From: a bacterium
GTDB lineage: Bacteria > Gemmatimonadota > Glassbacteria > GWA2-58-10
Length of the DNA stretch: 38,967 nucleotides
NCBI GenBank assembly: GCA_021372515.1
Contig: JAJFUG010000023.1
Coordinates: 1-38,967 of the forward strand
Direction: 5' to 3'
Under the pieces are notes generated by a model. The model did no database searches and was not told where the DNA came from. It saw only the letters and a program-made list of their open reading frames with translations. Of this stretch, positions 1 through 20,596 are shown piece by piece (the first letter of the stretch is position 1; the number at the start of each line of letters is the position of its first letter). The position numbers and the translations under genes were made by a program.

Positions 1-2790
1 GCTCAGACTGACATGCTCCGTCGCGCCCTCGGGCACCTCGAACTTGATCGAGGTGGAGGGGTTGAACGGGTTGGGTGAATTCTGCATCAGGCTGAAAGCC
101 TTGGGCAGCGATGCGGCGTTGGCGCCCAGGGCCAGGAGCTCGGTGAGGAACTGCTCGCGCTGGCTGGTGCTCAGGTCCAGATTGCCCAGGGCGGTTTCCA
201 GCTCGATCACGTCGAGCTGGCTGAGGTTGAAGCTGCTCTGGCCGGGCGAGAAGATGCTGCCCGCGGCGAGCAGGGCCTGCGGGGGATTGCATTTGCCGGA
301 GAGAAGCTCCTTGAGCAGCAAGGTGGCGTCATCGAGCGACCACTGGCCGTCCCCGTCCCAGTCCAGGGCCGGGTTGTCCGGATCGGTCACGCCGCCGGCC
401 ATCAGGAACAGGACGTCCTTGACATTCAGGGCGCCGTCGCGGCACAGGTCGCAGCGGGTATCGATCGCCAGCTCATTGGTGGGTTTCATCGCCACACCCA
501 GACTGGTGGCCAGGTTGCCCGTATTCTGCAGGTCGTGTCTCCACTTGGGCCAGGTGGTCAGATCGTAGCCTACCGGCCAGCCGGGGCTGGCGCTGCAGCC
601 CTTTTCGTTGAGGCTGACATAGAAGACCGGTCCGTAGACCGAGACGCAGGAAGTGCCTGAGTTACCCGATGAGCCTTGTATCCCGCTGCCGGATGACTGT
701 CCCTCTGTGGTCAGGAAGATACTCTCCCACGGGAAAGTCGTGGAGCTGTTTGTCAAGTCCGCATCGATGGCTATTATATTGCTCGAATTGCAGTCAATAT
801 CTCCCGTAGTGGTCATGACCGCCGAGCTCCAGACCGGGCCCTTGACATTGAAGGTCCATCTGGGGCTGCCGCCGTTGACACCGAAGGCGTAGATGAGGCT
901 GTCACTGGAGCCGACATAAGCTGCGCCGTGGATCAGGTCGATGGTGGGCGAGGAGATGACCGGGCCACCGGTGGTGTAGCTCCAGGCCAGGCTGCCGTCC
1001 GACTGCAGGGCGTATATCTTGCTGTCGTTGGACCCGAAATACAGGCGCCCGTTCAGGTCTATCGCAGCCGAGGACCAAATTGCAGCCCCGGTCTGATAAG
1101 CCCAGCGCAGGTTGCCGCCGTTGTCCAGGGCGTACATTTTCCCGTCGCTCGAACCGCAGTACACAGTCCCGTCCGTAGCCAGGGCCGGGGAGGCGAGCAC
1201 CTCGCCGCCGGTCTGGAAGCGCCACAGGAGCGAGCCGGTGGGGCCGATGGCGTAGATGTACCCATCGCAGGAGCCGACATACACCTCACCGTTGGCGCCG
1301 GCGGCAGGGGAGGACACCACCGCGCCGCCCGTGGTGTACTTCCATTTCAGGGTTCCGTTGGGGTTCAGCGCATACAGGTTGCCGTCATTGCTGCCGAACA
1401 GGATCGTGCCCACGTAATCCACGGCCGGCGAGGAGAGGACCGCGCCCCCGGTCTTGAACGACCAGATGACGTTGGGGTTGAGTATCTCGTAGAAATTGAC
1501 GCCGTCGACCAGCTTGGTAAGGTCTGGAGCCGGGGATTTGACAACTCCCTGGCCTTCGATGACCTTCTCGGCATAGAAATAGCCGTCGGCCCGGCCGTAA
1601 TAGGCGATCCCTGTGCTGTCCACTGTCGGGCTGCAGGAGATGATTGTCTGCTTGTCCAGTGCGTAAAGGTTGTAGGAGCCCTTGGCGTTGATCAGCGAAA
1701 TCCCGTTGTCGGTGGCGCACCAGATTTTGGAGGGATTTTCCATATAGATATCGTTGACCTTGCCTGCGGACAGGCCGTCCGACGTGGTGATAGTCGTCCA
1801 GGCGCCATCCTGGAACAACTTTACACCGTAGTCGGTAGCCACCCAGACTCTTCCGATGCCGTCACTGATCAGGGAGGGGACTCTGGACCAGCCATCCACG
1901 CCAGCGTTGAACAGCGATTCGGTCAAACTTCCACCCTGGTAACGGTAGAAACCCACTGTCTGGCTGGATTTGTCGTAGGAGGCGAACCAGATAGTATTCC
2001 CGTCGGCCGCCACGTCAATCGCGGTGACCTCGCCGCGGATTTGATTCGCCTGTATCAGCGTGGCGCAGGCGGTCTCACGGCAGGTGGTGATCCCATGGGT
2101 CGGGGTGCCGAAATATTTAACCCCGTTCTTGTCCACGGCTACGCAATTGGCCGGGCCGTCCACTATGCTCCAGTCCTGGCCGGTAAAGCGCAGAATTCCG
2201 GAGCTGCTGCAAACCCAGAAAACCCCATCCGGGTCCACTCCCACCGCGTTGAACACGGCCTGGGCGGGAAACCCGAAATATGAGGCATCGTAGGTTTTAG
2301 ATTCTGTCTTTTTTTGCGAGCATCTGTTCTGACGTCCGTCCGCGCCGATGAATGACCACGTGACATCCTGGTCTCTCAGCTCCCAGAGCATACGCACGGA
2401 GTGCTCGCTGATGGCCATCATGAGATACAGCCAGGTCGCAGGCGGCTGGTTCTCGATTGGGCTTATTGCCAGGTCTTTCGGAGCGAAATCGGTGAGGGCT
2501 TGAGGATCGTAGACGGGATAGGTTACAAATTCGATCCCTTTTCCGCCGAGGAACAACGCATCGGACCGGTAAACCAAGTTGGTGATCAACCCCTGCGCCG
2601 CGTCATCCGAGCCGGTGCGCACCGCGGCGAACTTTTCGTTGCGCGAGGCGGTGCTGAACACAGCCTGGACCTTGCCGCCGTCCTTCAAGCCGATGACGTC
2701 GAAGGTGTGGATGCCAAAGTCCGCGCGCATCCCGGAGGCGATGAAGCAGAGAGCGGTAATTGCGGGATATAGAACTCGCATGAATCTCAT
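1..2790 (-). CDS. Secreted beta-propeller protein with dockerin and C-terminal sorting motif (3' end cut off)
   Basis: One frame is open without a stop from the ATG at 2790 to the window edge (930 codons), so the C-terminus is missing. AGGAG lies 7 nt before the ATG. The first 24 or so residues form a signal peptide (basic MRFMR, then a hydrophobic stretch, cut near GMRA). Residues about 300-360 carry propeller repeats of the two-component-regulator type (VWVATDYGV, IWCATDNGI). Residues about 435-650 hold at least five PQQ-like blades with recurring SSPA, FGSNDG and YAL. Residues about 783-830 look like a type I dockerin (DLCRDGALNVKDV, then DWDGDGQWSLDDA). The last visible residues, QNSPNPFNPSTS, begin a sorting domain of the type found on proteins exported by type IX secretion in FCB bacteria. 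The role is probably extracellular or surface binding; the ligand is unknown. The PQQ-like blades do not imply PQQ binding. Confidence 0.9.
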   Translation of the reverse strand, partial: MRFMRVLYPAITALCFIASGMRADFGIHTFDVIGLKDGGKVQAVFSTASRNEKFAAVRTGSDDAAQGLITNLVYRSDALFLGGKGIEFVTYPVYDPQALTDFAPKDLAISPIENQPPATWLYLMMAISEHSVRMLWELRDQDVTWSFIGADGRQNRCSQKKTESKTYDASYFGFPAQAVFNAVGVDPDGVFWVCSSSGILRFTGQDWSIVDGPANCVAVDKNGVKYFGTPTHGITTCRETACATLIQANQIRGEVTAIDVAADGNTIWFASYDKSSQTVGFYRYQGGSLTESLFNAGVDGWSRVPSLISDGIGRVWVATDYGVKLFQDGAWTTITTSDGLSAGKVNDIYMENPSKIWCATDNGISLINAKGSYNLYALDKQTIISCSPTVDSTGIAYYGRADGYFYAEKVIEGQGVVKSPAPDLTKLVDGVNFYEILNPNVIWSFKTGGAVLSSPAVDYVGTILFGSNDGNLYALNPNGTLKWKYTTGGAVVSSPAAGANGEVYVGSCDGYIYAIGPTGSLLWRFQTGGEVLASPALATDGTVYCGSSDGKMYALDNGGNLRWAYQTGAAIWSSAAIDLNGRLYFGSNDSKIYALQSDGSLAWSYTTGGPVISSPTIDLIHGAAYVGSSDSLIYAFGVNGGSPRWTFNVKGPVWSSAVMTTTGDIDCNSSNIIAIDADLTNSSTTFPWESIFLTTEGQSSGSGIQGSSGNSGTSCVSVYGPVFYVSLNEKGCSASPGWPVGYDLTTWPKWRHDLQNTGNLATSLGVAMKPTNELAIDTRCDLCRDGALNVKDVLFLMAGGVTDPDNPALDWDGDGQWSLDDATLLLKELLSGKCNPPQALLAAGSIFSPGQSSFNLSQLDVIELETALGNLDLSTSQREQFLTELLALGANAASLPKAFSLMQNSPNPFNPSTSIKFEVPEGATEHVSLS

Positions 2791-2982
2791 TTGCTACTCC
2801 TGTGAAGGATACGGACTGTCTGTCACAGTTGCGGGTGACAACGAACATCACAGTTGCTGCATGCTCCCTCCGGAAATGAAGAAGATGAAAAAATTATGTA
2901 TTATGTCCTGGGAGGATTTTCGGGTTGAGAAATGTCGGATTCATAAGCTACAAAAGCTACATATATGACATCGGACACTTTC

Positions 2983-3011
2983 ATTCTAAATATAAGAGAA
3001 GAGATTGTCAA
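2983..3011 (-). promoter_or_regulatory. Sigma70-type promoter of the beta-propeller gene
   Basis: On the minus strand TTGACA (3006-3011) is followed after exactly 17 nt by TAGAAT (2983-2988). Transcription would start near 2976 and leave a leader of about 185 nt before the ATG at 2790. The surrounding 2791-3240 is AT-rich and holds no gene; it contains this promoter and the divergent promoter at 3178-3206. Confidence 0.65.
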
Positions 3012-3177
3012 GGTTTTTTAAAAAATATTATGCATTTCCCGGTGAAAAGGGATGCAACCAGGGATATACTTGAGGCGCAACCAGGTCGGCGTGGTTTTTG
3101 CATCAAATGTTATTGTAAATCCCGGGTGGTTCATATTAATATGGTCTTGCCCGGACAGCTTGCCCGTAACGGAAAAA

Positions 3178-3206
3178 TTGACTTGAAATCCAGTGTGTGT
3201 TATTAT
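3178..3206 (+). promoter_or_regulatory. Sigma70-type promoter of the HTH-REC response regulator
   Basis: TTGACT (3178-3183), a 17-nt spacer and TATTAT (3201-3206) match the sigma70 consensus well. Transcription would start about 3213, giving a leader of under 30 nt before the ATG at 3241. It may drive the whole sensory cassette up to the terminator at 8560. Confidence 0.65.
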
Positions 3207-3240
3207 AGTCACCAATGAATCAAATGCAAGGAGAGATGCC

Positions 3241-3855
3241 ATGGCGGATAAGCCCGATTTCCAACCCTCCCTGGAACCGGCCCTGTCCACAACCACGGTA
3301 GCGAAATATTGCCGTGTTTCCGGAGTGCAGGTCAACCGCTGGATCAAGGACGGGAAGCTGAAAGGGTACCGGTATCCAGGTGGACGCTATAAAGTTTCGA
3401 AAAAGAATTTCCGGGAGTTCCTGGAGCTGAACAACATACCGGTCATCGAGAAGTTCTTCGAGGAAAACACGCCGGTCAAGATCATGATCGGTGAGGACGA
3501 TGTCGATTTCGCCCAGAGCATTGTCCAGGCCTTGGAGGACGAATTCCCGGACTATGAGGTCCGGGCGGCCAACGACGGTTACGAAGTGTTGCTGTGCATG
3601 GGCTCCTACATCCCCGACATCCTGCTCCTGGACATGAAAATGCCCAAGATCAACGGCCTGGAGGTCTGCCAGCGGGTCAAGAGCACCGACTCGCTGGAGG
3701 GAGTCAAGATCGTGGCCATGACAGGCAACTCGGTTACCTACACGCGGGAAGTGGTGCTGCAGAACGGCGCGGACGATTACCTGATCAAGCCGTTCGAACG
3801 GGCCGAGCTGTTCAGAGTGATCGGCAAGCTTCTGAGCCGGAAAGCCGCAGTCTGA
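3241..3855 (+). CDS. Response regulator with N-terminal excisionase/MerR-like HTH and C-terminal receiver domain
   Basis: The protein has 204 residues. ATG at 3241 is chosen because AAGGAG sits 7 nt upstream and the candidate promoter ends only 34 nt before it; an upstream in-frame ATG at 3193 lies inside the promoter. Residues about 16-60 form a small winged HTH of the excisionase/MerR type (TTTVAKYCRVSG, VNRWIKDGKLKGYR, GGRYKVSK). Residues about 78-200 form a receiver domain with the acidic pocket E85-D86-D87, phospho-acceptor D131 (LLLDMKMP), T161 (AMTGNS) and K183 (LIKPF), so all phosphotransfer residues are present. Having the DNA-binding domain before the receiver is the reverse of OmpR or NarL types. 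The gene lies just ahead of a TonB receptor, binding-protein and kinase operon. It is inferred to be the output of that kinase. Confidence 0.9.
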   Translation: MADKPDFQPSLEPALSTTTVAKYCRVSGVQVNRWIKDGKLKGYRYPGGRYKVSKKNFREFLELNNIPVIEKFFEENTPVKIMIGEDDVDFAQSIVQALEDEFPDYEVRAANDGYEVLLCMGSYIPDILLLDMKMPKINGLEVCQRVKSTDSLEGVKIVAMTGNSVTYTREVVLQNGADDYLIKPFERAELFRVIGKLLSRKAAV

Positions 3856-4021
3856 GCCGGCGTCTGCAAGTCGACAGGATCGGGCCGAGCTGGAATGGAC
3901 CGGTTGCCCTGCGCCCCGGAAAGAGCGGGGATGCATCGGAATGGTTCATGCCTTTGGAATAGAGAGATTACGGTTCACTTCTCTGAGGTTGGCTTCCACT
4001 CCAGTCGGACAACGCCTGGCA

Positions 4022-5914
4022 ATGAGACCCGCAAATGCAATCCGATGGATACGCGCCGCGGCTTTGTTTCTGTTGTGCAGTGCGTCCTGGCTTCCGGCGG
4101 CCGGCCGTGAGAGTCCCGAAGATTTTCTGTTTACCCCCCTGGATACGATTATAACCGCCAGCGGCATGGAGCAGAGTATCGACCGTGCCCCTACCGCCAT
4201 GACGGTGATAACCGCGCGGGAGATTCACGCCTCGGGCGCGCTCTCCATCCCGGAGCTGCTGCGTTTCATCCCGGGGATGGACGTAGTGACAGTCAGCTCC
4301 TCGCACGCCGAGGTCAACGTGCGGGGACTGAGCCAGGTCCCGGCCGACAAGCTCCTGGTGCTGGTGGACGGGCGTTCGGTGTACCTCGACTACTACGGCG
4401 GGGTGATCTGGGAGAGCCTTCCCCTGGCCCTGGACCAGATCGAGCGGATCGAGGTCGTGCGCTCGCCGGCCTCGGCCCTCTACGGGGCCAACGCTTTCAG
4501 CGGCGTGATCAACATCATCACCAAGACCCCGGCCCGCATGGGCGGGCCGCAGTTCCGGCTGCAGGCCGGCGAGCGCGGTACGCTCTACGGGCAGGGGCTT
4601 GTCGGACGGGTGTTCGGGCCGACCAGCTTGCGCCTGGCTGTGGGCGGGAACCGGATCGACAGTTTCGAGGACGCCTCCGAGCCGGCCAAACGCATGTTTT
4701 TCAGCAATTTTCTTCTCGAACACCGCCTCTCTCCCTCACGCAGCCTGTCCCTGGATGTCGGCGGGAGCCAGGGGCATGTCCGGCGCGTGTTCATCGACGA
4801 TCTGACCAAGTCCCAGATCAGCTCCTCGTACGTCAAATTCAACTGTCTGCTGGATGCCCTCTCCATCCAGGCTTTCTGGAACCGGATCGATCAGGAGGAG
4901 AAATCGGTCTATCTGACCAGCCCGGACGAGCGGATCAACTCCAACACAGTCGACCTCGAACTCCAGTACAAAAAAAACCTCAAATGGAACAACTCACTGG
5001 TTTCGGGCGCCTCGATCCGGCACAACTCGTTCAGCACGGATGTCACCCCGGCGGATGAGGAGCAGGACCTCTATTCTTTCTATCTTCAGGACGAGTACCG
5101 TCCCATCCCGGAGCTGAGCTTTCTGGCCGGCTGCCGGGTGGACCATCACCCCCTGACCAAGACCAATGTCAGCCCGCGTTTCAGCCTGATCTGCGCCCCG
5201 GACCGGGTGAACACCCTGCGCATTTCCCTGGCCCGGGCCTACCGCAACCCAAGCTTTCAGAACTCGGAACTGGACTACAAGCGGAGCTACCGTCTGCACG
5301 TGCTCGGAAACCGGGAGCTGAAGGCCGAGAAAGCCACCTCGACCGAGTTCGGCTACACCTTCTTCCCGGGCGAGATGATGAAGTTCAAGACCGACCTGTT
5401 CTTCCTGCGTTTCCACGACAACATCTTCCTGGAGAAGGCCCGACAGGAGGGCGATTTCCTGGTCCTGACCTTCAACAACCGGGATAAAGCCAGAATTATC
5501 TGGGGTTTTGAGTCCTCCCTCGATTTCATCCCCGTACCCTGCCTGAAATTCAACCTGAACTACAGCTTCCAGCGGGTGGGGAACGACTATTTCGTGGGTG
5601 CGCAGCAGTCGCCCCCGCGCGACAAGGCGAACTGCAAGGTGTCCCTGTCTCCGGCCGCCGGTGTGGACCTGAGCCTGAACGCCGGGTACACCAGCGGCTC
5701 CAAATGGATCGTGGTGGACCGGGACGGTGAGTTCGGGCTGTACAAAGTGCCGGCCCACAGCACGGTGGACACGCGTCTGGGCTACAGCGCCGGCGACAGC
5801 GGCCTCGAGCTGTTTGTCGCCGGCTACAACCTGTTCGACAACAAGGTGCGCGAATACCCGGTGGCCGAGCGGATTCGCCGGAGGGTGACAGTCGGTGCCT
5901 ACTGGACTTACTGA
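4022..5914 (+). CDS. TonB-dependent outer-membrane receptor
   Basis: The start at 4022 gives a 630-residue precursor with a clear signal peptide (MRPANAIRWIRAAALF, cleaved around AAG-RE); an ATG at 3941 would add 27 residues ahead of it. A probable TonB box (DTIITASG) is followed by a plug domain with the usual marks: RAPTAMTVITAREI, ELLRFIPGM, VNVRGLSQ, IERIEVVRSPASALYGANA and GVINIITK. The rest is a beta-barrel rich in alternating aromatic strands, ending in a terminal tyrosine. The length fits vitamin/siderophore-type receptors (about 600-700 residues), but the substrate cannot be read from sequence. Its 3' end overlaps the start of the binding protein by 20 nt, indicating co-translation with the periplasmic protein and kinase. 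It could act as importer, sensor or both. Confidence 0.92.
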   Translation: MRPANAIRWIRAAALFLLCSASWLPAAGRESPEDFLFTPLDTIITASGMEQSIDRAPTAMTVITAREIHASGALSIPELLRFIPGMDVVTVSSSHAEVNVRGLSQVPADKLLVLVDGRSVYLDYYGGVIWESLPLALDQIERIEVVRSPASALYGANAFSGVINIITKTPARMGGPQFRLQAGERGTLYGQGLVGRVFGPTSLRLAVGGNRIDSFEDASEPAKRMFFSNFLLEHRLSPSRSLSLDVGGSQGHVRRVFIDDLTKSQISSSYVKFNCLLDALSIQAFWNRIDQEEKSVYLTSPDERINSNTVDLELQYKKNLKWNNSLVSGASIRHNSFSTDVTPADEEQDLYSFYLQDEYRPIPELSFLAGCRVDHHPLTKTNVSPRFSLICAPDRVNTLRISLARAYRNPSFQNSELDYKRSYRLHVLGNRELKAEKATSTEFGYTFFPGEMMKFKTDLFFLRFHDNIFLEKARQEGDFLVLTFNNRDKARIIWGFESSLDFIPVPCLKFNLNYSFQRVGNDYFVGAQQSPPRDKANCKVSLSPAAGVDLSLNAGYTSGSKWIVVDRDGEFGLYKVPAHSTVDTRLGYSAGDSGLELFVAGYNLFDNKVREYPVAERIRRRVTVGAYWTY

Positions 5915-6896
5915 AAGAGCCGCGCCCCGCTGTGTCCGGGTGCTGGTCTGGCTGGTCCTGCTGCTCCTGTCCGCCGGGACCGGGGCCGAGGGAGGCGCTC
6001 CGGCTGTCCTGTCCGGCCAGGGCCGGATACTGGTGCTGGTCAGCCCCGGACGGGCGGAATATGAGGTGGCCGCGCGGGGTTTCCTCGACCGGATTGCCGG
6101 CCTGCGGCTCGACCTTTCCACCGAGAAACGCTACCTGCCCGAGGCGCCGGAGCAGGAGAAAGCCTTCTGGAAGTCCCTGGAGGGAAACCGTCCCCGGCTG
6201 ATCGTCACATTCGGCAGCCCGGCCTCTTTTTCGGCCCTGCGCAGCAGCGCCGACCTCCCGCTGGTCTGCAGCATGCTGCTCGACCTTCCCGACCCGGCCG
6301 CATCCGGCGCCTCCGCCCGTGATGTAACCGCTCTTGTTCTGCGCCCGACACTGACCAACCAGCTCGGAATGATCCGCGAGGCCCTGCCCGCGGTGCGGCA
6401 CGTGGGAATGCTGTATTCCCCCGAGGAGTTCCCGGACGGCAACCCAGAGAGCACGGCCTCCGGACTCGGGCTGCGGGTGATCAAGGCCCCGGTCTCCAGT
6501 GACCGCCAGGTGCCGGAGGCCCTGCGGAGCATCATCGATCAGGTCGATATCCTCTGGCTCCCGCCGGACAACCGGGTCTACAACCGGGACGCCCTGCGGT
6601 TCATCCTGGAGGAATGCCACAGGCGCAGCATGCCGGTGGTGGCTTTCACCCGCCGTCTGGCCGAGGCCGGTGCGGCCCTGAGCCTGGATTTCGACTACGA
6701 GGACCTGGGGGCGCAGACCGCCGATCTGGCCCTGGCCCGTCTGGCCGCGGGCGCGCCCGCCGGGCGGCGTGTCGAGGCGCCGCGCCGCCTGAAACTCTAT
6801 ATCAACGAGGCCGTGGCTTTCGGGCTGGGCCTGCATATCGAGCCGCAGGTGCTGGGCGAGGCGACCCTGGTGGGGCGGGAAAGGGGGCGCCGATGA
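5895..6896 (+). CDS. Periplasmic substrate-binding protein, ABC_sub_bind family
   Basis: This 333-residue protein starts with GTG at 5895, overlapping the receptor gene by 20 nt; a GTG at 5940 is an alternative. The N-terminus has a hydrophobic export segment (VLVWLVLLLLSAGTG). The two-lobed binding fold of the ABC_sub_bind family (PF04392, COG2984) is suggested by LIVTFGSPASFSAL, HVGMLYSPEE, VDILWLPPDNRV, MPVVAFTRRLAEAGAALSL and DYEDLGAQTADLALARLAAG. No ABC permease or ATPase gene is nearby. Instead the gene is followed, with a 4-nt ATGA overlap, by a histidine kinase. It therefore more likely presents a ligand to the kinase than feeds a transporter. The ligand is unknown. Confidence 0.82.
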   Translation: MPTGLTERAAPRCVRVLVWLVLLLLSAGTGAEGGAPAVLSGQGRILVLVSPGRAEYEVAARGFLDRIAGLRLDLSTEKRYLPEAPEQEKAFWKSLEGNRPRLIVTFGSPASFSALRSSADLPLVCSMLLDLPDPAASGASARDVTALVLRPTLTNQLGMIREALPAVRHVGMLYSPEEFPDGNPESTASGLGLRVIKAPVSSDRQVPEALRSIIDQVDILWLPPDNRVYNRDALRFILEECHRRSMPVVAFTRRLAEAGAALSLDFDYEDLGAQTADLALARLAAGAPAGRRVEAPRRLKLYINEAVAFGLGLHIEPQVLGEATLVGRERGRR

Positions 6897-8533
6897 ACAT
6901 GCCCAAAGCCGCCCGGTTCCGGGCCAGCCTGGGGCTCAAGGCCAGCCTGGCCGTGATCGCCCTGATCTGCCTGATCTCGGCCCTGTTCTCGACTTTCTTC
7001 ATCCTGTACCAGAAAAGCTCCTCGCTGAACGAGTTGCGCAAGCGGGCCCTGTCCCTGGCCGAAACCCTGGCCTACAACAGCCGCTACTCAGTGTACGCCG
7101 GGGATATCCAGACCCTTAGCCGCCTGATCGACGGCTCGCGGCACGACAGCGACATCCTGCGCGCCGCCCTGACCGACCTGGAGGGCAAGCCGATCGTCTC
7201 CTCCGGGTTCCCGGCGCGCTGCGCGGACAGCCTGCTCAGCCTGGGACGGCGGGACAGCCTGGCCGACTGGTTCCCGCTGGAGGAGGGGAAAGTCTACCGC
7301 GCCCAGGTGCCGATCCCTGGGGAGCAGGTCCGCAGCGGGGAGGACGAGTCGTTCCTGTTCGAGCCGCTGAGCGAGGAGAAAGGTGACTCCGTGGAGGCAG
7401 TGAAAGGGGAGACGATTGCAGGTTACGCCGTGCTGGATGTCTCGCTCGGGAGCATGAACCGCGGCCTGACCGCTGCGGCGCGCTGGGCCGGGCTTCTCAC
7501 CCTGGCCCTGATCCTGGTCTCCATCGCCGCAGTGGTGCTGATCGTGCGGCGGCTGGTCAGCCCGATCTACAGCCTGGCCGAGGCCACCCAGGAGGTGGCG
7601 CGCGGCGAGTTCGGCCTGCGGGTGGAACTGGAGCGCAAGGATGAGCTGGGCGTGCTGGCCGATTCGTTCAACGAGATGAGCACCCGGCTCAAGACCTCGC
7701 GCGATGAGTTCGACGCCCTGAACCAGGAACTCGAAAAGCGGGTCAGCGAGAGCACCTCCGAGCTGGTGGCGCGCTACGGCGAGCTGCAGAGCACCCTGAG
7801 CCAGATGCGCAGCCTGAACGCGGCCAAGGATGATTTCATCTCGCTGGTCTCGCACGAGCTGCGCACCCCGCTCAGCTCGATCCAGCTGTTCTCGGAGACG
7901 CTGCTCCACGGCCTGAGCAAGGAGGAGACAAAGCGCGCCGATGTCCTGAGCACAATCATCCGTAACTGCCGCCGCCTGTCGCGCCTGATCAACGATGTGC
8001 TCGACCTGTCGCGCATGGAGGCCGGAAGGGTCCAGGTGCACCTGCGCCGCTTCGACCTGGCCGAGCTGACCGCCGTGACCCTCGATTCGCTCGAGCCCAA
8101 TTTCGCCGACCGCTCCCTGGTCTGCGCACGGGAATTCCCGCGCAACGGTATCGAGCTGACCAGCGACCCGGACAAGGTGATCCAGGTGGTGACCAATGTG
8201 GTGGGCAATGCGATCAAGTTCTCGCCGGCGGGTTCACGGATCGAGGTGGGGATCGAGATGCCGGAGGGCGACGCCCTGATCCGGGTGCGTGACCACGGGC
8301 CCGGAATCGCCCCGGAGGACATCCCCAAGGTGTTCGACAAGTTCCATCAGCTCGAGAATATCAACCTGACCGTGGAGGGCAGCGGCCTGGGCATGTCGAT
8401 CTCGAAGACACTGGTCGAGGTCCTGGGGGGGAGAATCTGGATCGAGAGCCGGGTGGGGGACGGCACCTGCGTGTTCATCCGCCTGCCGGGCAAAGTGCCA
8501 GCCCGGCTGTCGGCCAAGGCGCGGCCGGCCTGA
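6893..8533 (+). CDS. Membrane sensor histidine kinase (HAMP, HisKA, HATPase)
   Basis: The ATG at 6893 overlaps the preceding stop (ATGA); the product has 546 residues. TM1 is about residues 17-38, a periplasmic sensor region about 39-195, TM2 about 199-218, then HAMP (about 219-270) and a coiled-coil linker (about 275-310). The HisKA phospho-site is H331 in SHELRTPLSS. The ATPase domain has an N box (NVVGNAIKFSP), a G1 box (DHGPGIAPEDIP), an F box (FDKFHQ) and a G2 box (GSGLGMSISKTL). It is a complete, apparently active kinase. The periplasmic loop is short and resembles no sensor domain I recognise, in keeping with signalling through the binding protein made from the same transcript. It is the last gene before the terminator at 8560. 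Confidence 0.93.
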   Translation: MNMPKAARFRASLGLKASLAVIALICLISALFSTFFILYQKSSSLNELRKRALSLAETLAYNSRYSVYAGDIQTLSRLIDGSRHDSDILRAALTDLEGKPIVSSGFPARCADSLLSLGRRDSLADWFPLEEGKVYRAQVPIPGEQVRSGEDESFLFEPLSEEKGDSVEAVKGETIAGYAVLDVSLGSMNRGLTAAARWAGLLTLALILVSIAAVVLIVRRLVSPIYSLAEATQEVARGEFGLRVELERKDELGVLADSFNEMSTRLKTSRDEFDALNQELEKRVSESTSELVARYGELQSTLSQMRSLNAAKDDFISLVSHELRTPLSSIQLFSETLLHGLSKEETKRADVLSTIIRNCRRLSRLINDVLDLSRMEAGRVQVHLRRFDLAELTAVTLDSLEPNFADRSLVCAREFPRNGIELTSDPDKVIQVVTNVVGNAIKFSPAGSRIEVGIEMPEGDALIRVRDHGPGIAPEDIPKVFDKFHQLENINLTVEGSGLGMSISKTLVEVLGGRIWIESRVGDGTCVFIRLPGKVPARLSAKARPA

Positions 8534-8559
8534 GAACTCGGGTAGATACCTTGTTAACG

Positions 8560-8593
8560 CAGGGGCAATTCTTGAATTGCCCCTGTTTTTTTT
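8560..8593 (+). terminator. Rho-independent terminator after the histidine kinase
   Basis: A perfect 11-bp stem (CAGGGGCAATT / AATTGCCCCTG) with a CTTG loop is followed by eight T residues. It lies 26 nt after the kinase stop codon and closes the sensory cassette on the plus strand. Confidence 0.95.
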
Positions 8594-8703
8594 AAAGGCT
8601 GCTGGCTTTTGATCATGCAGCCTGAGGACAAAAACGGCGTCTTGCAGACCGGGGTAGAATAAGAAGGTACGATAGAAGATGGATGCAGGTCGGGGGCGGC
8701 TGC

Positions 8704-9498
8704 TCAGCGCAGTGAACGCAGGAAGGAGGACACCCCGTCCAGGGCGGCTTTCTCATCCGCGCCCTGGTTGTAGAGGTCGATCACCCGGCTGCCGAGCACC
8801 GAAATGTCGAACAGGGGTTTCACCTCGTCCACATGCTCGCGGCTGGAGAGGCCGAAGCCCAGGGCCAGGGGTACTTTCACCCGCGAGCGCAGCCGTGCGG
8901 CGAACGCCTCCAGTCCGGCAATGCGGCTGCCATCGCGCGCGCCGGTGATCCCCACCCGCGCGGTGGCGTAGAGGAAACCGGTGGCCCGCGCGCCGATCAG
9001 CTCGATCCGGCTGTCGGTGCAGGAGGGGCTGAGCACGTAGATCGGGTGGAGGCTGTGGCCCAGGCAGAGACCGTGGTAGTTTTCAGCGGTCTCCTCGGGC
9101 GGGATGTCGGGCACGATCAGCCCGGCCAGGCCGGCAGCGGCGCTGTCGCGGCAGAACGCCTCGACGCCGTAGTTGAACGGGATGTTGATGTAGGTCATGA
9201 ACAGCAGGGGCACGTTTGTCAGCTTTTTCGCCATGCGCTCGGCAAAGGTGAAACAGTCGCGCACGCGGATGCCGTTGGCCAGCGAGGCCAGGTTGGCTTT
9301 GAGGATCGTGGGGCCATCCGCCACCGGGTCGGTGAACGGTATCTGAAGCTCGATCAGGTCGGCGCCGGAGTCGGCGATGGTAAGGAGCAGGCGCTCCGAG
9401 GCGGCCAGGCTTGGGTAGCCCACCACGATATGGGCCATCAGGCCGTGGGCGCCCGCCGCCCGCAGCGAGTCCAGCTTCAAGTCTATCGCGTTACTCAT
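8704..9498 (-). CDS. trpA: Tryptophan synthase alpha chain
   Basis: The 264-residue product cleaves indole-3-glycerol phosphate to indole and glyceraldehyde-3-phosphate and passes indole to TrpB. The catalytic acids are present as E50 (LIELQIPF) and D61 (DPVADGPT), matching E49 and D60 of the Salmonella enzyme. Other TIM-barrel marks are [22 protein letters not shown], the phosphate-binding [16 protein letters not shown] and [10 protein letters not shown]. Several positions depart from the usual text, such as ELQIPF for ELGIPF and SPSCTDSRI for APTSTDERI, so this is a somewhat divergent subfamily. Its start overlaps trpB by 8 nt. No other trp genes are in the window. Confidence 0.95.
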
Positions 9499-10741
9499 CG
9501 TAGCCCGCCTTCGCCTTGCGCTCCAGGAATTCCAGCCAGGCTTTGTCTTTCAAAGCTTCGGCCACAATGAAAATGTCCTTGTCCCCGCGTCCCGACAGGT
9601 TCACCACCATTATGCAGTCCTTGGGCAGGCCCGGGGCGCGGCGCACCGCTTCGGCCACGGCGTGCGAGCTTTCGAGCGCCGGGATTATCCCCTCGGTCTT
9701 CATCAGGAGCTTGAGCGCCGCGAGCACCTCGGCATCCGTGGCGCTGACATATTCCACCCGGCCCAGGTCGTGCAACAGGGCGTGCTCCGGGCCCACTCCG
9801 GCGTAGTCCAGGCCCGCGGCCACGCTGTGGGTGGTCAGGGTCTGGCCGTCTTCATTCTGCAGGAAATAGGACTTGTAGCCCTCGATGATCCCGTGCTTGC
9901 CGCCTTTGAAACGCGCCGAGTGCAGGCCGCTTTCCAGGCCCAGCCCCCCGGCCTCCACTCCCACCAGGCGGACCGATTTCTCATCCAGGAACGGGTGGAA
10001 CAGGCCGATCGAGTTGCTCCCGCCGCCCACGCAGGCCACCAGGACATCCGGCAGACGGCCCTCGGCCTCCTGGAGCTGACTGCGCACCTCGCGGCCGATC
10101 ACGCTCTGGAAATCGCGCACCATGCTGGGGTAGGGGTGCGAGCTGAGCGCGGAGCCCACCAGCAGGTAGGTGTTCTCCAGGTTCTCGATCCAGTTCTTGA
10201 AAGAGGCGTTCACCGCCTCCTTGAGCGTGCGGCTGCCATAGGGCACCGGGGTGACCTTGGCGCCCAGTTGCTCCATCCAGAACACGTTGGGCCGCTGACG
10301 GGCCATGTCCAGCTCGCCCATGAAAATCTCGCACTCGAACCCGAAACGCGCCGCCACGCTGGCCGTGGCCAGGCCGTGCTGCCCGGCGCCGGTCTCGGCG
10401 ATCAGGCGGGTCTTGCCCATGCGGCGGGCCAGCAGCGCCTGGCCGATGCAGTTGTTCACCTTGTGGCTGCCGGTCTGGCCCAGGCCCTCCTGCTTCAGGT
10501 ATATCCTGGCCCCGCCCAGGCGGGCGGAAAGGTTCCGGGCGAAATACAGCGGCGTGGGACGGCCGCTCCAGGTGCGCAGAAGACATTCGAGCTCGGCCTG
10601 GAACGCGCTGTCGGCGCGCGCCTCGAGGTAGGCCCGCTCCAAGGCCTCCAGGGCGCTCACCAGCATCTCCGGCACATACCGTCCGCCATACGGCCCGAAA
10701 TGGCCGTGCGAGGCGAAGCTGTCCACCTTGAAGCCGTCCAT
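9491..10741 (-). CDS. trpB: Tryptophan synthase beta chain
   Basis: The start at 10741 gives a 416-residue protein beginning [10 protein letters not shown], close to the family length of about 400; the frame is open upstream but that part lacks homology and contains the promoter. The enzyme condenses indole and serine using PLP. The PLP lysine is K94 (GSHKVNN), the catalytic glutamate is E116 (AETGAGQHG), and the phosphate loop is GGGSNSIG. Family motifs [10 protein letters not shown] and [10 protein letters not shown] are also present. QTGSHKVNN replaces the usual HTGAHKINN, suggesting the same divergent lineage as the adjacent trpA. A promoter lies about 40 nt upstream. Confidence 0.95.
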
Positions 10742-10782
10742 GCGCTGAGTTCCAGTCCGGGTTGAGAGTGAAATAAGGCTGC

Positions 10783-10812
10783 AATATAGGTCAGCGGCCG
10801 TTGCCGTGTCAA
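10783..10812 (-). promoter_or_regulatory. Sigma70-type promoter of trpBA
   Basis: On the minus strand TTGACA (10807-10812), an 18-nt spacer and TATATT (10783-10788) form a near-consensus promoter. Transcription would start near 10776, about 35 nt before the trpB ATG. That leader is too short for a leader-peptide attenuator or a T-box. Confidence 0.7.
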
Positions 10813-10892
10813 GATGGAAGTGCCCTGTCCGCCGGGAAAGCAGAGCGCTAAGTCGAAGCCCTGCGCAGCGCGGAGACAAAAATTAAACCGCC

Positions 10893-10907
10893 CGGCCGCA
10901 GCGGCCG
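10893..10907. promoter_or_regulatory. Short palindrome between trpB and the small membrane protein gene
   Basis: CGGCCGC-A-GCGGCCG is a perfect 7-bp inverted repeat around one base in the divergent intergenic region 10742-10982. It could be an operator for either gene. No regulator is implied by the sequence, and GC-rich chance palindromes are common, so this is tentative. Confidence 0.3.
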
Positions 10908-10982
10908 ATTATTGAAAGTGTGAGGATGTTTTATGCAGAGCCGCCCGAGACGGAACGAGGGCACAACGGCAAGGAGGCCGCA

Positions 10983-11273
10983 ATGTTGGGGGAATTGCTT
11001 GACTATCTGTCCGATCCGGTGTTTTTCACCGGCTTCAGCCTTGTAATCGGCGTAGCCTACATCTATGTCTGGGTCACCTCCCTGCGTGACCTGTCGCGTC
11101 AGGAAAGCAGCTTCTACAGCCTGGATCAGGATGCCGCCGCTGGAAACGGGGTCCGTCAGCGCCCGCTGCTCAAGTACAGCGGACGGCGCATCTCGGTGCG
11201 CTCAAAGGCTGTGCGAGATGAGGAATCCGAAAGCGCAGGGCGCAGAAGGGCCAGGATCACCCGGGCCGCCTGA
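10983..11273 (+). CDS. Small single-TM membrane protein of unknown function
   Basis: The start is set by AAGGAGG at 10971-10977, five nt before the ATG. The 96-residue product has one transmembrane segment at about residues 14-35 (FFTGFSLVIGVAYIYVWVTSL), then a soluble tail with a very basic end (SGRRISVRSK, GRRRARITRAA). I do not recognise the family. The strong ribosome-binding site and the terminator 28 nt downstream support a real monocistronic gene. Confidence 0.65.
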   Translation: MLGELLDYLSDPVFFTGFSLVIGVAYIYVWVTSLRDLSRQESSFYSLDQDAAAGNGVRQRPLLKYSGRRISVRSKAVRDEESESAGRRRARITRAA

Positions 11274-11300
11274 GGACCCCTTGCAGCCACACAGAATGCC

Positions 11301-11331
11301 AGCCCGCGCCGGAACTCCGGGCGGGCTTTTT
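11301..11331 (+). terminator. Rho-independent terminator after the small membrane protein gene
   Basis: AGCCCGC-CCGG pairs with CCGG-GCGGGCT around an AACT loop, with one bulged G on the left arm, and is followed by a short T run. It separates the gene ending at 11273 from yjbQ. Confidence 0.85.
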
Positions 11332-11407
11332 AATCTTGACATCATCGTACAGAAAGCGCATCATCATTCTGTCAAGAAACAGTGTGGATGAACCAGGGGA
11401 GGCAGTC

Positions 11408-11803
11408 ATGCGCAAGATCAGCCTTCAGACCAGCCGCCGCACCGAATTCATCGACATAACCGACCAGGTGGAACTGGCTCTGGCTGACTCGGGAGTGCGG
11501 GAGGGTGTCTGCACGGTGTTCACACCGCACACGACCGCCGCGGTGACGATCAACGAGAACGCCGACCCCAGCGTGCCGCGCGACATCCTCGAAATAGTCG
11601 ACTCCGTGGTTCCGTTCGATTCCCCCCGTTACCGTCACTCCGAGGGCAACAGCGCCGCCCATATCAAGAGCAGCCTGTTCGGTTGCAGCTTGCAGGTGAT
11701 CGTGGAGGAGGGCCGCTTGCAGCTGGGCACCTGGCAGGGGGTCTATTTCGTGGAGTTCGACGGGCCGCGCAGCCGCAAGGTCTGGATCACATTTACACAT
11801 TGA
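11408..11803 (+). CDS. yjbQ: YjbQ family protein (UPF0047, thiamine-phosphate-synthase-like)
   Basis: The ATG at 11408 follows a strong AGGGGAGG and gives 131 residues, the usual size of the family. Typical features are FIDITDQV near the start, the histidine-rich FTPHTTAAVTINENADP, a second conserved histidine in HIKSSLFG, and the closing GTWQGVYFVEFDGPR. E. coli YjbQ has a weak thiamine-phosphate synthase activity, but the physiological role of the family is not settled. The gene stands alone; a TTGACA at 11336-11341 could be a -35 box, though I see no convincing -10. Confidence 0.9.
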   Translation: MRKISLQTSRRTEFIDITDQVELALADSGVREGVCTVFTPHTTAAVTINENADPSVPRDILEIVDSVVPFDSPRYRHSEGNSAAHIKSSLFGCSLQVIVEEGRLQLGTWQGVYFVEFDGPRSRKVWITFTH

Positions 11804-11850
11804 AACCCGAATCGGCAAGACATTCCCAATAAACAACGAGGCGTTGTAGC

Positions 11851-11875
11851 GTAGGGGCGGGTTTCAAACCCGCCC
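11851..11875. repeat. GTAGGGGCG palindromic repeat, copy 1
   Basis: The 25-bp element starts GTAGGGGCGGG and ends CCCGCCC, able to fold into a hairpin (GGGCGGGTTT against AAACCCGCCC). It belongs to a family also found at 11906, 14010, 14118, 33024 and 33050. It lies between convergent yjbQ and the GHMP kinase gene. Confidence 0.8.
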
Positions 11876-11905
11876 TTATTGCGCAGCTGGCGGATGATTT
11901 TTTTC

Positions 11906-11931
11906 GTAGGGGCGGCCCCCTGTGACCGCCC
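11906..11931. repeat. GTAGGGGCG palindromic repeat, copy 2
   Basis: This 26-bp copy (GTAGGGGCGG ... ACCGCCC) has the same orientation as copy 1, 30 bp away. Only the outer GTAGGGGCG and CGCCC parts are shared; the centre differs but stays partly self-complementary. Confidence 0.75.
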
Positions 11932-11992
11932 GAAATGCTGTTGTGCACGGTGCAGAGTGCCCCCCCTTTTTTATACCTCCCTCTAATAGAAA

Positions 11993-12011
11993 CGGCGGCC
12001 CGGGGCCGCCG
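11993..12011 (-). terminator. Possible terminator of the galU-GHMP kinase operon
   Basis: CGGCGGCC and GGCCGCCG form an 8-bp GC stem around a 3-nt loop. Read on the minus strand it is followed by TTTCTATT, a weak T run, 34 nt beyond the kinase stop. A pure GC hairpin without a firm T run is only suggestive. Confidence 0.4.
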
Positions 12012-12044
12012 CATATCGGATAGATACAAAGAGTCAAACCCACC

Positions 12045-13031
12045 TTACTCGACCTCTTCCACGGTCAGGCCCGGCTGGCGCGGGTCGAGGTGCAGCACCC
12101 GCGAGTCGGCCTCGCGGCGGAACGCCGCTACAAGTTTCTCCGGCTCGGTGTGCAGTGCGATTATCGTTCCCCCGCCGCCCGCACCGGCCAGCTTGGCCCC
12201 CAGGGCGCCGTGCTCCAGGGCCAGAGTGATGAACTTGTCGTTGGCCTTGCCACTCGCCCCCAGCTCCTGCTGGATCGCGTGGTTGCGGTTCATCAGCCGT
12301 CCAAGTTCCGGCCAGTCGCGGCGCAGGAGCGCTTTCTTGCCCCGGCGGGCCAGCTCGGCGATCTCGCGGTAACCCTCCACCACGGCCGGGTCTCCCTCCA
12401 GCCAGCGCTCACGGATCGGCTTGAGGATACTGCCCGAGATACGCTGCACGCCCGTGTGCACCACCACCATCGGCAACTCGTCCACGAACCGCGCCAGCGG
12501 CTCCACCGTGGCGTAGACCTCGCCCTCCAGGTCGCGGTAGACCTCCTTGGTCCGGAAATCCAGGTAGTTCATGCCGCCGAATACGGTCATGTACTGGTCC
12601 TGGTAGCCACACTGGATGTCCATGTAGTTGAGCTCAATGTAGCGGATCGTCTCGGCGGTCTGGTAAGGGTTGATGTCACGGCCGACAAAGCGGCAGACCG
12701 CGCCGAACACGGCGGCCAGCATGGCGGTGGAGCCGGCCAGCCCGCTGCGGAACGGCACATCGCTTTCGCCCTCCAGGCGGAAAGCCTGTTTAGACAGGCG
12801 CAGGTAGCGGATCACGCTGCGGGCGATGTCGAACACCCCGCTGTCCATCTTGAGGTCGCGCTCGTCGCGGATCACGGCCTCCTGGCCGGCGAAACACAAC
12901 TCAAGTTGCTTGGCCGGGCTGATCCGCGCCGTGGCGCGGCAGCTCAGGGTGCATGAGACCAGGCTGCCGCCGTAGCCGTCCGTGGGGTTGCCGATCACAC
13001 CTGCCCGGGCCGGGGCCGATGCTACGATCAT
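12045..13031 (-). CDS. GHMP-family sugar kinase
   Basis: This 328-residue protein carries the GHMP signature: an N-terminal substrate loop (APARAGVIGNPTDGYGG), the ATP-binding loop (RSGLAGSTAMLAAV, a variant of PxxxGLGSS) and the C-terminal GAKLAGAGGGGTII. The family phosphorylates small alcohols and sugars. Its start overlaps the upstream nucleotidyltransferase gene by 4 nt (ATGA). That coupling suggests it makes a sugar-1-phosphate that the neighbour activates, as in glucuronokinase or galactokinase pathways. The substrate is inferred from context only. Confidence 0.85.
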   Translation of the reverse strand: MIVASAPARAGVIGNPTDGYGGSLVSCTLSCRATARISPAKQLELCFAGQEAVIRDERDLKMDSGVFDIARSVIRYLRLSKQAFRLEGESDVPFRSGLAGSTAMLAAVFGAVCRFVGRDINPYQTAETIRYIELNYMDIQCGYQDQYMTVFGGMNYLDFRTKEVYRDLEGEVYATVEPLARFVDELPMVVVHTGVQRISGSILKPIRERWLEGDPAVVEGYREIAELARRGKKALLRRDWPELGRLMNRNHAIQQELGASGKANDKFITLALEHGALGAKLAGAGGGGTIIALHTEPEKLVAAFRREADSRVLHLDPRQPGLTVEEVE

Positions 13032-13912
13032 ACCAGCCTCGCCAGGTAGTTGCGCAGCATGTGTCCGTATTTCTCATCCTGCAGCGCGAAATCGACAAAG
13101 GCACGGAAATAGCTCTCGAAATTGCCGATGTCGTAGCGTTTCTCCTCCTCACCCATCAGCACGGCGTAGACCGGAAGGCCTTTTTTGATGAGCAGGGAGA
13201 TCGAGTCCGTGATCTGCAACTCGCCGCTCTTGCCGGGCAGGGTCATGTCGATGGCGTCGAAAATGGCGGGCGAAAACACGTAGCGCGCCGCGATGGCCAG
13301 GTCGCTGGGGGCATCCTCGATGTCCGGCTTCTCGACCAGGCTCTCCACCGAGAACACCCCGGGCGCGGTCTCTGCCTTGAACTTCACGATGCCGTAGCGG
13401 TAGGCCTCGCCGGGCGGGATACGCTCGATGGCGATGGTGCAGGCGGCCTTGTTCTTCTCGTGCACCTCCATCATGCGCTGCAGCAGGCTGCGCCCGCCCT
13501 GGCCGGAGCGGATGATCGAATCGCCCAGGGCGCAGACAAAGTTGTCCTCGGCCACGAAATCGCGCGCCAGGTTGATCGCATCGGCCAGGCCTTTCTGCTC
13601 GCTCTGGCGCACGTAGTAGAAACTGACGCTCATTTCCTGGTAGCGCAGCTCAGCGACCAGGGAGGACTTGCCGGTCTGGTTCAGCTCCTTGACCAGTTGC
13701 ACGTCCTTGTCGAAATGGTTCTCGATCGAGCGTTTGTGGCGGCCAGTGACAAACAGGATCTGCTTGAGCCCGGCTTTCTCGATCTCCTCCACCACATACT
13801 GCACCACCGGTTTGCGCCCCACGGGCAGCATTTCCTTGGGCTGGCTCTTGGTCGCGGGCAACAGGCGCGTGCCGTGCCCGGCCACCGGCACTACGACTTT
13901 TTTGATCGGCAT
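13028..13912 (-). CDS. galU: UTP-glucose-1-phosphate uridylyltransferase (GalU type)
   Basis: The ATG at 13912 is preceded by GGAGG at 8 nt and gives 294 residues, matching GalU. It would join UTP and a hexose-1-phosphate into a UDP-sugar. The nucleotide-binding loop VVPVAGHGTRLLPATKSQPKEMLP is spread over residues 7-30; further marks are KPVVQYVVEEI, VTGRHKRSIENHFD, FVCALGDSI and LVEKP. The usual AAGxGTR reads AGHGTR. The tail is about normal length. The gene leads a two-gene operon with the GHMP kinase. The stretch upstream (13913-14251) contains no gene, only a pair of inverted palindromic repeats. Confidence 0.93.
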   Translation of the reverse strand: MPIKKVVVPVAGHGTRLLPATKSQPKEMLPVGRKPVVQYVVEEIEKAGLKQILFVTGRHKRSIENHFDKDVQLVKELNQTGKSSLVAELRYQEMSVSFYYVRQSEQKGLADAINLARDFVAEDNFVCALGDSIIRSGQGGRSLLQRMMEVHEKNKAACTIAIERIPPGEAYRYGIVKFKAETAPGVFSVESLVEKPDIEDAPSDLAIAARYVFSPAIFDAIDMTLPGKSGELQITDSISLLIKKGLPVYAVLMGEEEKRYDIGNFESYFRAFVDFALQDEKYGHMLRNYLARLV

Positions 13913-14009
13913 GGTAAGGACCTCCACGTATGGTTATTTTTTAGGATAATGATTCATAATTTTCGAGTCTTAGGCGTACACTTCAACATATTCCTCGAAA
14001 AAAACTGAC

Positions 14010-14034
14010 GGGCGAACACAAGGTTCGCCCCTAC
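14010..14034. repeat. GTAGGGGCG palindromic repeat, copy 3 (inverted)
   Basis: The 25-bp element is the exact reverse complement of copy 4 at 14118-14142. The two copies enclose 83 bp and lie in the 339-bp gene-free stretch between galU and the DUF4416 gene. Each copy folds on itself, with GGGCGAAC pairing with GTTCGCCC. Confidence 0.85.
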
Positions 14035-14117
14035 ACCGTTTGTTGTTTGTGGTACAGAATTCCGAACCCCTGGAATACGCACCTGGGGTGCATATTAAAA
14101 CACTTCGAGAGGATATC

Positions 14118-14142
14118 GTAGGGGCGAACCTTGTGTTCGCCC
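14118..14142. repeat. GTAGGGGCG palindromic repeat, copy 4
   Basis: The element (GTAGGGGCGAAC ... GTTCGCCC) is identical over 25 bp to copy 3 read on the other strand. A transcript across both could form either two small hairpins or one long stem. Confidence 0.85.
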
Positions 14143-14251
14143 GATAGGATACGAGTAGAATAGGCATCACACATAAAAACACCCTCCGGAATAGTGCACG
14201 GCGCTGGCTGAATTTAGGCCCCCGGGGCCGGTGTTGTCAACGCTGGGACGC

Positions 14252-14809
14252 TCAGGGCCGCTCCTCTGGATGGGGTTCGAGCATCTGGCGCTTGTAGAGG
14301 CGGCGAATCTCCAGGAGCGCGCTGTCATAGGCCCCGAGCTTGAAATCCGGGAAAGTCCATTCGAACTTGGCCCAGCCGCCCTTGCGGTAGTAGAGGGTCA
14401 GGTCGGCCCAAACCCCCTCGCCGATGAATATTTTCTGGCCCATGTACTTGAACGAGGCCAGCACGACTTTCTGGTAGTCCAGTGTGCCGGGGTCGACATT
14501 CACCTGTCGGTTGCCGCCGGGTGCGGCCAGCTCGCGCTCGATCCGGTCGGTGGCGAGCTTGGACTGGGCCAACGCACCGGGGTGGACCAGGCGCTCCCAG
14601 GCGACAAAAATGCGCTTGAGGCCCGCGCCCATCTCGGCTTCGTAAAAATCCGTGTGCTCGAACGGGAACGGCTCACTGACAAAGTCTTCCGGGCCGTACA
14701 GCCCGGAAAGCCGCTCCCGGGCCCGCTCCAGCAGGCTTTCCTCGGAATAGAGGATCGCGGCGAACAGCTTCACCGGCTCCACCCGTCCTTTGGCCGGTCC
14801 CTGGTTCAT
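14252..14809 (-). CDS. DUF4416 family protein
   Basis: This 185-residue protein matches the DUF4416 pattern: VKLFAAILYSEESLL at the start, FPFEHTDFYEAEMG in the first third, LATDRIERELA, a central NVDPGTLDYQKVVLAS, and DLTLYYRKGGWAKFEWTFPDFK near the end. The family is widespread in bacteria and has no established function, although some members have been labelled GTP-binding. The start overlaps the upstream NAT-like gene by 4 nt, so the two are co-translated. Confidence 0.85.
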   Translation of the reverse strand: MNQGPAKGRVEPVKLFAAILYSEESLLERARERLSGLYGPEDFVSEPFPFEHTDFYEAEMGAGLKRIFVAWERLVHPGALAQSKLATDRIERELAAPGGNRQVNVDPGTLDYQKVVLASFKYMGQKIFIGEGVWADLTLYYRKGGWAKFEWTFPDFKLGAYDSALLEIRRLYKRQMLEPHPEERP

Positions 14810-19351: not shown

Positions 19352-20596
19352 ATGCGGGTCGAGCTTGAAATCGGCCTGCGCTACCTGTTTTCGCGCCGGC
19401 ACAAACGCTACCTGTCGCTGTTCACTCTGATCAGCGTAGGCGGGGTGTTCGTGGGGGTGATGGCCCTGATCGTAATCCTGGCCGTGCTGAACGGGTTCCA
19501 CGATGACCTGAAGGCCAAGATACTGGGCACCATGCCCCATGTGACCCTGATGAAGTACAACGGCGAGGGAATCACGGATTACGATTCCCTGCTGGCCGTG
19601 GTGGCGGCCGAGCCCGGGGTTAAGTACGCCGCGCCGCTGGTCTACAGCGAGGGGATGATCGTCTCCGAGCGCGGCAACACCGGGGCGATCCTGCGCGGGA
19701 TCGACCCGGCGCGCGAGGATTCGATCACCGGGATCGCGCAGCACATGGTGAACGGCGATTTCGCGTTCCAACGCAGCCAGGATGACCCGGACGGGCCGAT
19801 CTACCCGGCGGTGGTGATAGGCAGCTACATGGCGGCCGTGCTGGGCGTGGCCGAGGGCGATATCATCACGGTCTGGGCGCCGCGTGGGGTGCGGTTCTCG
19901 CCGCTGTTCGGGATGTCGGCGCTGTGGCGTAAGTACAAGGTGAGCGGCATATTCGAGACCGGGCTGTACGATGCTGACTCGAAATTCGCCTATTTCTCGC
20001 TGAGCGAGGCGCAGTCCTTTTTCGGCATGAAAAATGCCATCACCGATATCGAGGTCCGGGCGCGCGACGCGGAAGACGCGACCGCGGTGCGCGACAGCCT
20101 GACAGTCCTGCTGGGCTACCCGTTCACCGGCACGGACTGGATGAGTTTCAACAAGAACCTGTTCGAGGCGCTCAAGCTGGAAAAGACAGTGATGTTCATC
20201 ATCCTGACCCTGATCGTGCTGGTGGCCTCGTTCAACATAGTCGGCACCCTGACCATGCTGGTGGTGGAAAAGAGCCGCGAGATCGGAATCCTGCGCTCGA
20301 TGGGTTTCAGCGCCCGCTCAGTGGGGCTGGTGTTCGTGCTGGACGGGGCGGTGATCGGGGCGGTGGGCACCGCCTTGGGCCTGGGTGCGGGTTACGCGGT
20401 GGCGCGTTTTCTGTCCAGCCACCCGCTTAACGTGAGCGGCGAGGTGTATTTCATCGACCATATCCCGGTTATAATGCAGGCCGGTGATTTCCTGACCGTG
20501 GCCGGGGCCAGCCTTCTGATCTCGTTGGCCGCCACCCTGTACCCGGCTTTCCGTGCGGCCCGTCTGGCCCCGGTGGATGCTATCAGGTATGAGTGA
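19352..20596 (+). CDS. lolC: LolC/LolE-type lipoprotein-releasing permease
   Basis: This 414-residue inner-membrane protein belongs to the FtsX-like permeases that, with the LolD ATPase, release lipoproteins from the inner membrane for outer-membrane sorting. The N-terminus reads IGLRYLFSRRHKRYLS before TM1 (residues about 25-48). A large periplasmic domain follows, then three C-terminal TMs from about residue 275 (MFIILTLIVLVASFNIVGTL and later). The conserved cytoplasmic loop EKSREIGILRSMGFS is present. Only one permease is found here, so the complex may be a homodimer (LolF-like) or the partner is elsewhere. LolC and LolE cannot be told apart with confidence. The gene overlaps lolD by 8 nt. 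Confidence 0.9.
   Translation: MRVELEIGLRYLFSRRHKRYLSLFTLISVGGVFVGVMALIVILAVLNGFHDDLKAKILGTMPHVTLMKYNGEGITDYDSLLAVVAAEPGVKYAAPLVYSEGMIVSERGNTGAILRGIDPAREDSITGIAQHMVNGDFAFQRSQDDPDGPIYPAVVIGSYMAAVLGVAEGDIITVWAPRGVRFSPLFGMSALWRKYKVSGIFETGLYDADSKFAYFSLSEAQSFFGMKNAITDIEVRARDAEDATAVRDSLTVLLGYPFTGTDWMSFNKNLFEALKLEKTVMFIILTLIVLVASFNIVGTLTMLVVEKSREIGILRSMGFSARSVGLVFVLDGAVIGAVGTALGLGAGYAVARFLSSHPLNVSGEVYFIDHIPVIMQAGDFLTVAGASLLISLAATLYPAFRAARLAPVDAIRYE

Follow-up and report, generated by a model that had tools for sequence, protein, structure and literature searches.

A conserved Glassbacteria cassette joins a TonB receptor, a PF04392 binding protein and a two-component pair without transporter genes: a predicted sensory relay across the envelope

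Introduction

Proteins of the PF04392 family (ABC_sub_bind) are named as parts of ABC importers. What, then, is a member of this family doing between a gene for a TonB-dependent outer-membrane receptor and one for a histidine kinase (HK), behind a response regulator? We asked this of a cassette in a window (the whole stretch of DNA analyzed) of 38,967 nucleotides from a bacterium of the Glassbacteria (GenBank assembly GCA_021372515.1, contig JAJFUG010000023.1). Our answer, to which we give a probability of roughly 0.68, is that the cassette is transcribed as a single unit and encodes a sensory relay that crosses the envelope, with the PF04392 substrate-binding protein (SBP) acting as a sensor component.

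Results

The four genes form a compact unit

The original prediction described four genes, with an HTH-REC regulator in front and the receptor, SBP and kinase overlapping end to end by 20 and 4 nt, and the sequence bears this layout out (Table 1). Both the strong promoter placed before the regulator and the perfect terminator placed after the kinase are present. The 4-nt SBP/HK overlap (ATGA) is firm, and the 20-nt receptor/SBP overlap rests on the GTG start of the SBP gene. At sister loci, the receptor/SBP junction is a gap of 20 to 58 nt; the SBP/HK junction is tight (-4 to +3) across all loci compared. Four sister loci also have a promoter of the form TTGAC-17-TATNNT before HTH-REC. Repeats of 9 to 10 bp resembling GTTATRTTTG overlap the -10 element upstream of HTH-REC in L022, L023, L024, L026 and L168, and might be a putative autoregulatory operator of that regulator. 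They are little more frequent than in shuffled sequence and degenerate in the window, and for these reasons we did not accept them as an operator common to the HTH-REC upstream regions.

Table 1. Features of the cassette, in window positions
Feature	Position	Strand	Remarks
Promoter TTGACT-17-TATTAT, sigma-70-type, extended -10	3178..3206	+	TG before -10
HTH_17 + Response_reg regulator (HTH-REC)	3241..3855	+	Phospho-acceptor D131, codon 3631-3633
TonB-dependent outer-membrane receptor, Plug + TonB_dep_Rec	3941..5914	+	Pfam over cut-off
Periplasmic SBP, PF04392 (ABC_sub_bind)	5895..6896	+	GTG start, signal-peptide-like N-terminus, class I fold
Histidine kinase (HK), HAMP + HisKA + HATPase_c	6893..8533	+	H321, codon 7853-7855
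Kinase periplasmic sensor domain, residues 39-195	7007..7477	+	Single-Cache/CHASE8-like, weak in window protein
Intrinsic terminator	8559..8586	+	12-bp stem, 4-nt loop, then T8

The regulator's acceptor, D131, had been named correctly and is invariant in eight homologues. The phospho-histidine of the kinase had been given as H331; the actual H-box residue is H321, which is likewise invariant in homologues, and the two proteins have the marks of an orthodox two-component system. In a structure model of the kinase, a mixed helix-strand domain lies between two membrane helices. Pfam likens this sensor domain to single-Cache or CHASE8 domains, more clearly in homologues than in the window protein, where the similarity is weak, with scores for PF17152 (CHASE8) below the cut-off of 27 in both the window kinase (13.4 bits) and that of L023 (23.4 bits).

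In the receptor, Pfam gave the plug and barrel only and no N-terminal signaling domain, on which grounds FecA/FecR signaling was set aside. The residues DTIITAS (68-74, at about 4142-4162), before the plug, resemble a TonB box by eye.

The gene order is conserved in the family

A profile search built from the cassette found relatives in the window genome, and five more genomes from its family also have them. Counting the window, nine loci (6 genomes, 5 genera) have HTH-REC, receptor, SBP and HK in that order; in one of them, L025, the contig end precedes HTH-REC and that end of the cassette is lacking. The genes are thus not scattered in relatives. Identity to the window proteins among the family's cassettes is 31-39% for the SBP, 41-53% for the HK, 38-60% for HTH-REC and 40-52% for the receptor.

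The window genome has three cassettes, on contigs C8, C23 and C156, and its three closest HTH-REC copies are exactly those in the cassettes. A looser set on C103 consists of a receptor, a REC protein, an SBP and an HK. Each of the genome's PF04392 genes (4/4) stands beside both a receptor and a kinase. In a looser variant from this genome (L019, 6399-16986), the genes encode a receptor, REC, SBP, PAS-type kinase, FIST-domain protein, second kinase and REC.

On the minus strand at window positions 1-2790, divergent from the cassette, a gene that runs off the contig encodes a secreted beta-propeller protein whose sorting tail is type-IX-like. Upstream of the C156 cassette there is a homologue (41% over 469 aa). 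The genome has many such proteins and the orientation is not the same, which leaves the gene's membership of the cassette unproven. Contig C137 begins (1-141) with a stretch identical to the end of this gene product (residues 884-930, window 1-141), and C137 therefore probably continues the window contig.

No transporter accompanies the binding protein

As originally claimed, neither a permease nor an ATPase is encoded within the cassette. The window's sole ABC ATPase gene (20553-21275) lies 12 kb away, beside a lipoprotein-export-type membrane gene. Could a dedicated permease/ATPase pair be encoded elsewhere, as the original prediction had asked? A BPD_transp_2 search of the window genome, which is 99.5% complete, returned a single permease, ribose-type by sequence, on another contig and after an ATPase-sized gene. 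On the strength of this genome-wide search, we rejected ABC uptake through a distant permease. The broader proposal that the SBP passes its ligand to a permease encoded elsewhere, with the kinase only controlling uptake genes, is for us improbable. Loci with PF04392, permease and ATPase genes do occur in Desulfobacterota and on plasmids, and TonB receptors are importers as a rule; against it stand the type and location of the genome's sole permease and the SBP tree described below, in which transporter SBPs form a branch of their own.

The binding protein resembles aromatic amino acid binders

Can the SBP tell us what is sensed? The protein matches PF04392 with 78.9 bits (cut-off 25.9), and its structure model (pLDDT 83.5) has a class I SBP fold whose best matches are 3lkv, 3lft and 6hnj (CD0873). 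Crystallized 3lkv, 3lft and CD0873 hold Phe, Trp and Tyr (PMC6816091). By a residue mapping read by eye off the profile alignment, D225, invariant in the cassettes, aligns with an Asp common to all three crystallized relatives; Y268 aligns with the ligand-contacting Tyr-279 of CD0873, a position that is Gln in the Trp binder; and T252 aligns with CD0873 Glu-263, which contacts the Tyr hydroxyl. From this we infer a Phe/Tyr-like ligand, and the receptor suggests a scarcer or bulkier form of it. A point against the relay is that an aromatic amino acid in free form can usually do without a TonB receptor. Genes resembling trpA and trpB (window 8704-10879, minus strand) lie next to this aromatic-type SBP and are convergent with the cassette.

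An alternative is that the SBP carries no ligand and instead helps to regulate the kinase structurally, in the way that YfiR does with YfiN, with the receptor reporting on the state of the envelope. The layout from outer membrane through periplasm to inner membrane is YfiBNR-like, and the kinase sensor has CHASE8/sCache similarity, which we take to be of the YfiN type. The SBP, however, retains the class I fold, the invariant D225 on the shared Asp and a Tyr at the Tyr-279 site, and we hold the co-regulator explanation to be improbable.

Sensory and transporter neighborhoods separate in the SBP tree

The search suggested with the original prediction, for PF04392 genes beside HisKA and TonB receptor genes, found the association kept in the family and in other phyla. 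A profile scan of genome contigs gave loci in Omnitrophota, Desulfobacterota, Binatota, Acidobacteriota and Planctomycetota. SBP, HK and receptor occur together at Desulfobacteraceae, Binatia and Desulfonema loci and also in Omnitrophota, where the receptor gene is in pieces. In Acidobacteriota, the locus ends inside a kinase-like gene. In Planctomycetota, receptors come after the SBP, and a hybrid kinase gene is divergent. Two Gemmatimonadota genomes outside the family encode a receptor, an SBP and a hybrid kinase consecutively; the remaining matches of that phylum search are SBPs in other settings. Overlaps of 4 nt between the SBP and receptor and/or HK genes are frequent at the Omnitrophota, Desulfobacterota, Binatota and other Gemmatimonadota loci.

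Relatives were found in 120 of 297 Desulfobacterota genomes (E <= 1e-8), with up to seven PF04392 relatives per genome. We sampled the neighborhoods of 42 of these SBPs at 40 loci, counting partners within 3.5 kb. Both an HK and a receptor were near 19 of the 42; an HK without receptor accompanied 4, plus one with an unrelated membrane protein, and a receptor without HK accompanied 5, plus one. A permease and ATPase were near 5, and 7 were unclear. Full sensory and full transporter sets did not coincide at any of the 40 sampled loci. L121, L131 and L134 have a receptor and SBP without a nearby kinase, which speaks against the relay; the L121 region (446-14324) is a tandem receptor-SBP-receptor-SBP-SBP array. 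The relatives found on plasmids of Pseudomonas and Variovorax belong to plain ABC transporters, the Variovorax one adjoining tyrosine-catabolism genes.

In an SBP tree of 66 proteins, sensory and transporter neighborhoods were split with one change when unclear rows were omitted, in what is a quick tree with some long branches and a protein set gathered with the cassette profile, which favors sensory members. The window SBP groups with those of L021 and L020 (support 98), and this group is nested in a Glassbacteria group (support 99). Judged by gene neighborhoods, a sensing branch seems to have been overlooked in PF04392, which is classed as a transport family.

Most full-form cassettes adjoin a putative N-acyl amino acid synthase

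The group of three in the tree comprises the cassettes of short form (window, L020, L021). The full form (L018, L022, L023, L024, L025, L026) has further genes downstream: one for a REC protein, which was not called in L022, one for a REC-HD-GYP-type protein and one of the size of a B12-binding radical SAM gene, with domains checked in L018 and L023. Divergent from HTH-REC in L018, L022, L024, L026 and L168 is a gene for a roughly 400-aa synthase whose N-terminal domain is receiver-like and which also has a FeeM domain. The FeeM profile (PF21926, cut-off 27) scores 59.7 bits in L018 and 43.4 in L026, and 26.9, just under the cut-off, in L023. L023 and L025 encode a shorter FeeM-like protein after the radical SAM gene, and stand-alone short forms occur elsewhere too. 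The synthase keeps an R/D/D/R/E residue pattern, which we take to be LuxI-like.

At L018 (9123-10337), the receiver-like domain fused to the FeeM/LuxI-like synthase matches PhoB receivers by profile and seemingly lacks the acceptor Asp; a second FeeM gene follows. L168 is a second arrangement of the cassette regulators: at 2489-6735, the synthase is divergent from HTH-REC, REC and REC-HD-GYP-like genes, with no receptor, SBP or kinase.

Might the ligand be an N-acyl amino acid that the cells make themselves and perceive through receptor, SBP and kinase? This would be a special case of the sensory relay, differing in the ligand, with the short form in the window as an extra receiver for the same or a related molecule. 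In its favor, the synthase is divergent from HTH-REC at five loci, the FeeM matches of the window genome lie at the C8 cassette alone, and the LuxI-like pattern is retained. The SBP fold binds aromatic amino acids, and N-acyl tyrosines are suspected signals, tied in a planctomycete to putative N-acyl amino acid synthases (PMC7293339). Yet no synthase lies near the three short cassettes, window included, none was found by profile search in the sampled cassettes of other phyla, and a pocket for a free amino acid may not fit an acyl chain. The relation of the synthase to the window cassette is indirect, and a self-made ligand seems to us unlikely. Slightly less likely still is a quorum-type circuit in which the synthase's N-acyl amino acid would be perceived from outside the cell by receptor, SBP and HK, with HTH-REC and the REC-HD-GYP protein (cyclic-di-GMP) as outputs and the window cassette as a stripped-down receiver. 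By gene content, the full-form cassettes link a LuxI/FeeM-like synthase and an output of HD-GYP type with the sensory SBP lineage, a possible cell-signaling route.

Discussion

The best reading of the cassette is a receptor-fed, SBP-assisted two-component system with a predicted aromatic amino acid-like ligand. The sensory line first proposed, from outer membrane to periplasm to inner membrane to DNA, gains support because the cassette is conserved and a transporter is absent, and it is still a prediction. The observed gene order, domains, lack of a permease, conservation and separate sensory SBP lineage would fit the following route. The TonB receptor would take a scarce or bulky ligand into the periplasm, where the PF04392 protein, of an aromatic-amino-acid-binding family, would catch it. 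The loaded (or empty) SBP may then dock on the single-Cache-like periplasmic domain of the kinase, which would autophosphorylate at H321 and pass the phosphate to D131 of HTH-REC. The phosphorylated regulator would be expected to act on its own promoter and on other genes. Of these steps we infer the ligand class, the docking, the phosphotransfer and the autoregulation. With its own Cache-like domain, the kinase could also sense without the SBP.

An adjacent SBP gene and a kinase with a periplasmic domain are the gene-level hallmarks of an SBP-triggered two-component system, and the cassette has both. The mechanism has precedent, since about ten cases of SBPs that activate sensor kinases have been characterized (PMC9602780). 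We found no description in the open-access literature of PF04392/ABC_sub_bind proteins with kinases or TonB receptors. If the sensory lineage is what it seems, many proteins annotated as "ABC transporter substrate-binding protein" within it would be sensors.

How does the cassette compare with known systems? ABC importers of the TrpXYZ type encode a permease and an ATPase with the SBP; the window cassette has neither. TrpX, CD0873 and VC_1101, the PF04392 aromatic SBPs, share fold, family and the Asp and Tyr positions with the window SBP, but CD0873 and TrpX have been studied as parts of ABC importers, whereas the window lineage lies beside kinases and receptors. FecA/FecR likewise ties an outer-membrane receptor to gene regulation; Fec-type systems have FecR and ECF sigma genes, in contrast to the cassette, which has neither and whose route would run through the SBP and kinase. 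YfiBNR shares an outer-membrane part, a periplasmic regulator and a CHASE8/Cache-HAMP inner-membrane protein, with a kinase here in place of the cyclase, an SBP in place of YfiR and a TonB receptor in place of YfiB. Closest in design are TorT-TorS, XylFII-LytS, BctC-BctE and LuxP-LuxQ, in which a periplasmic SBP is encoded with a kinase that has an extracytoplasmic domain. The cassette differs from these in its PF04392 SBP, its lack of transporter genes and its fixed TonB receptor partner, and what is new, as predicted from the genes, is a TonB receptor as the constant companion of an SBP-triggered two-component system.
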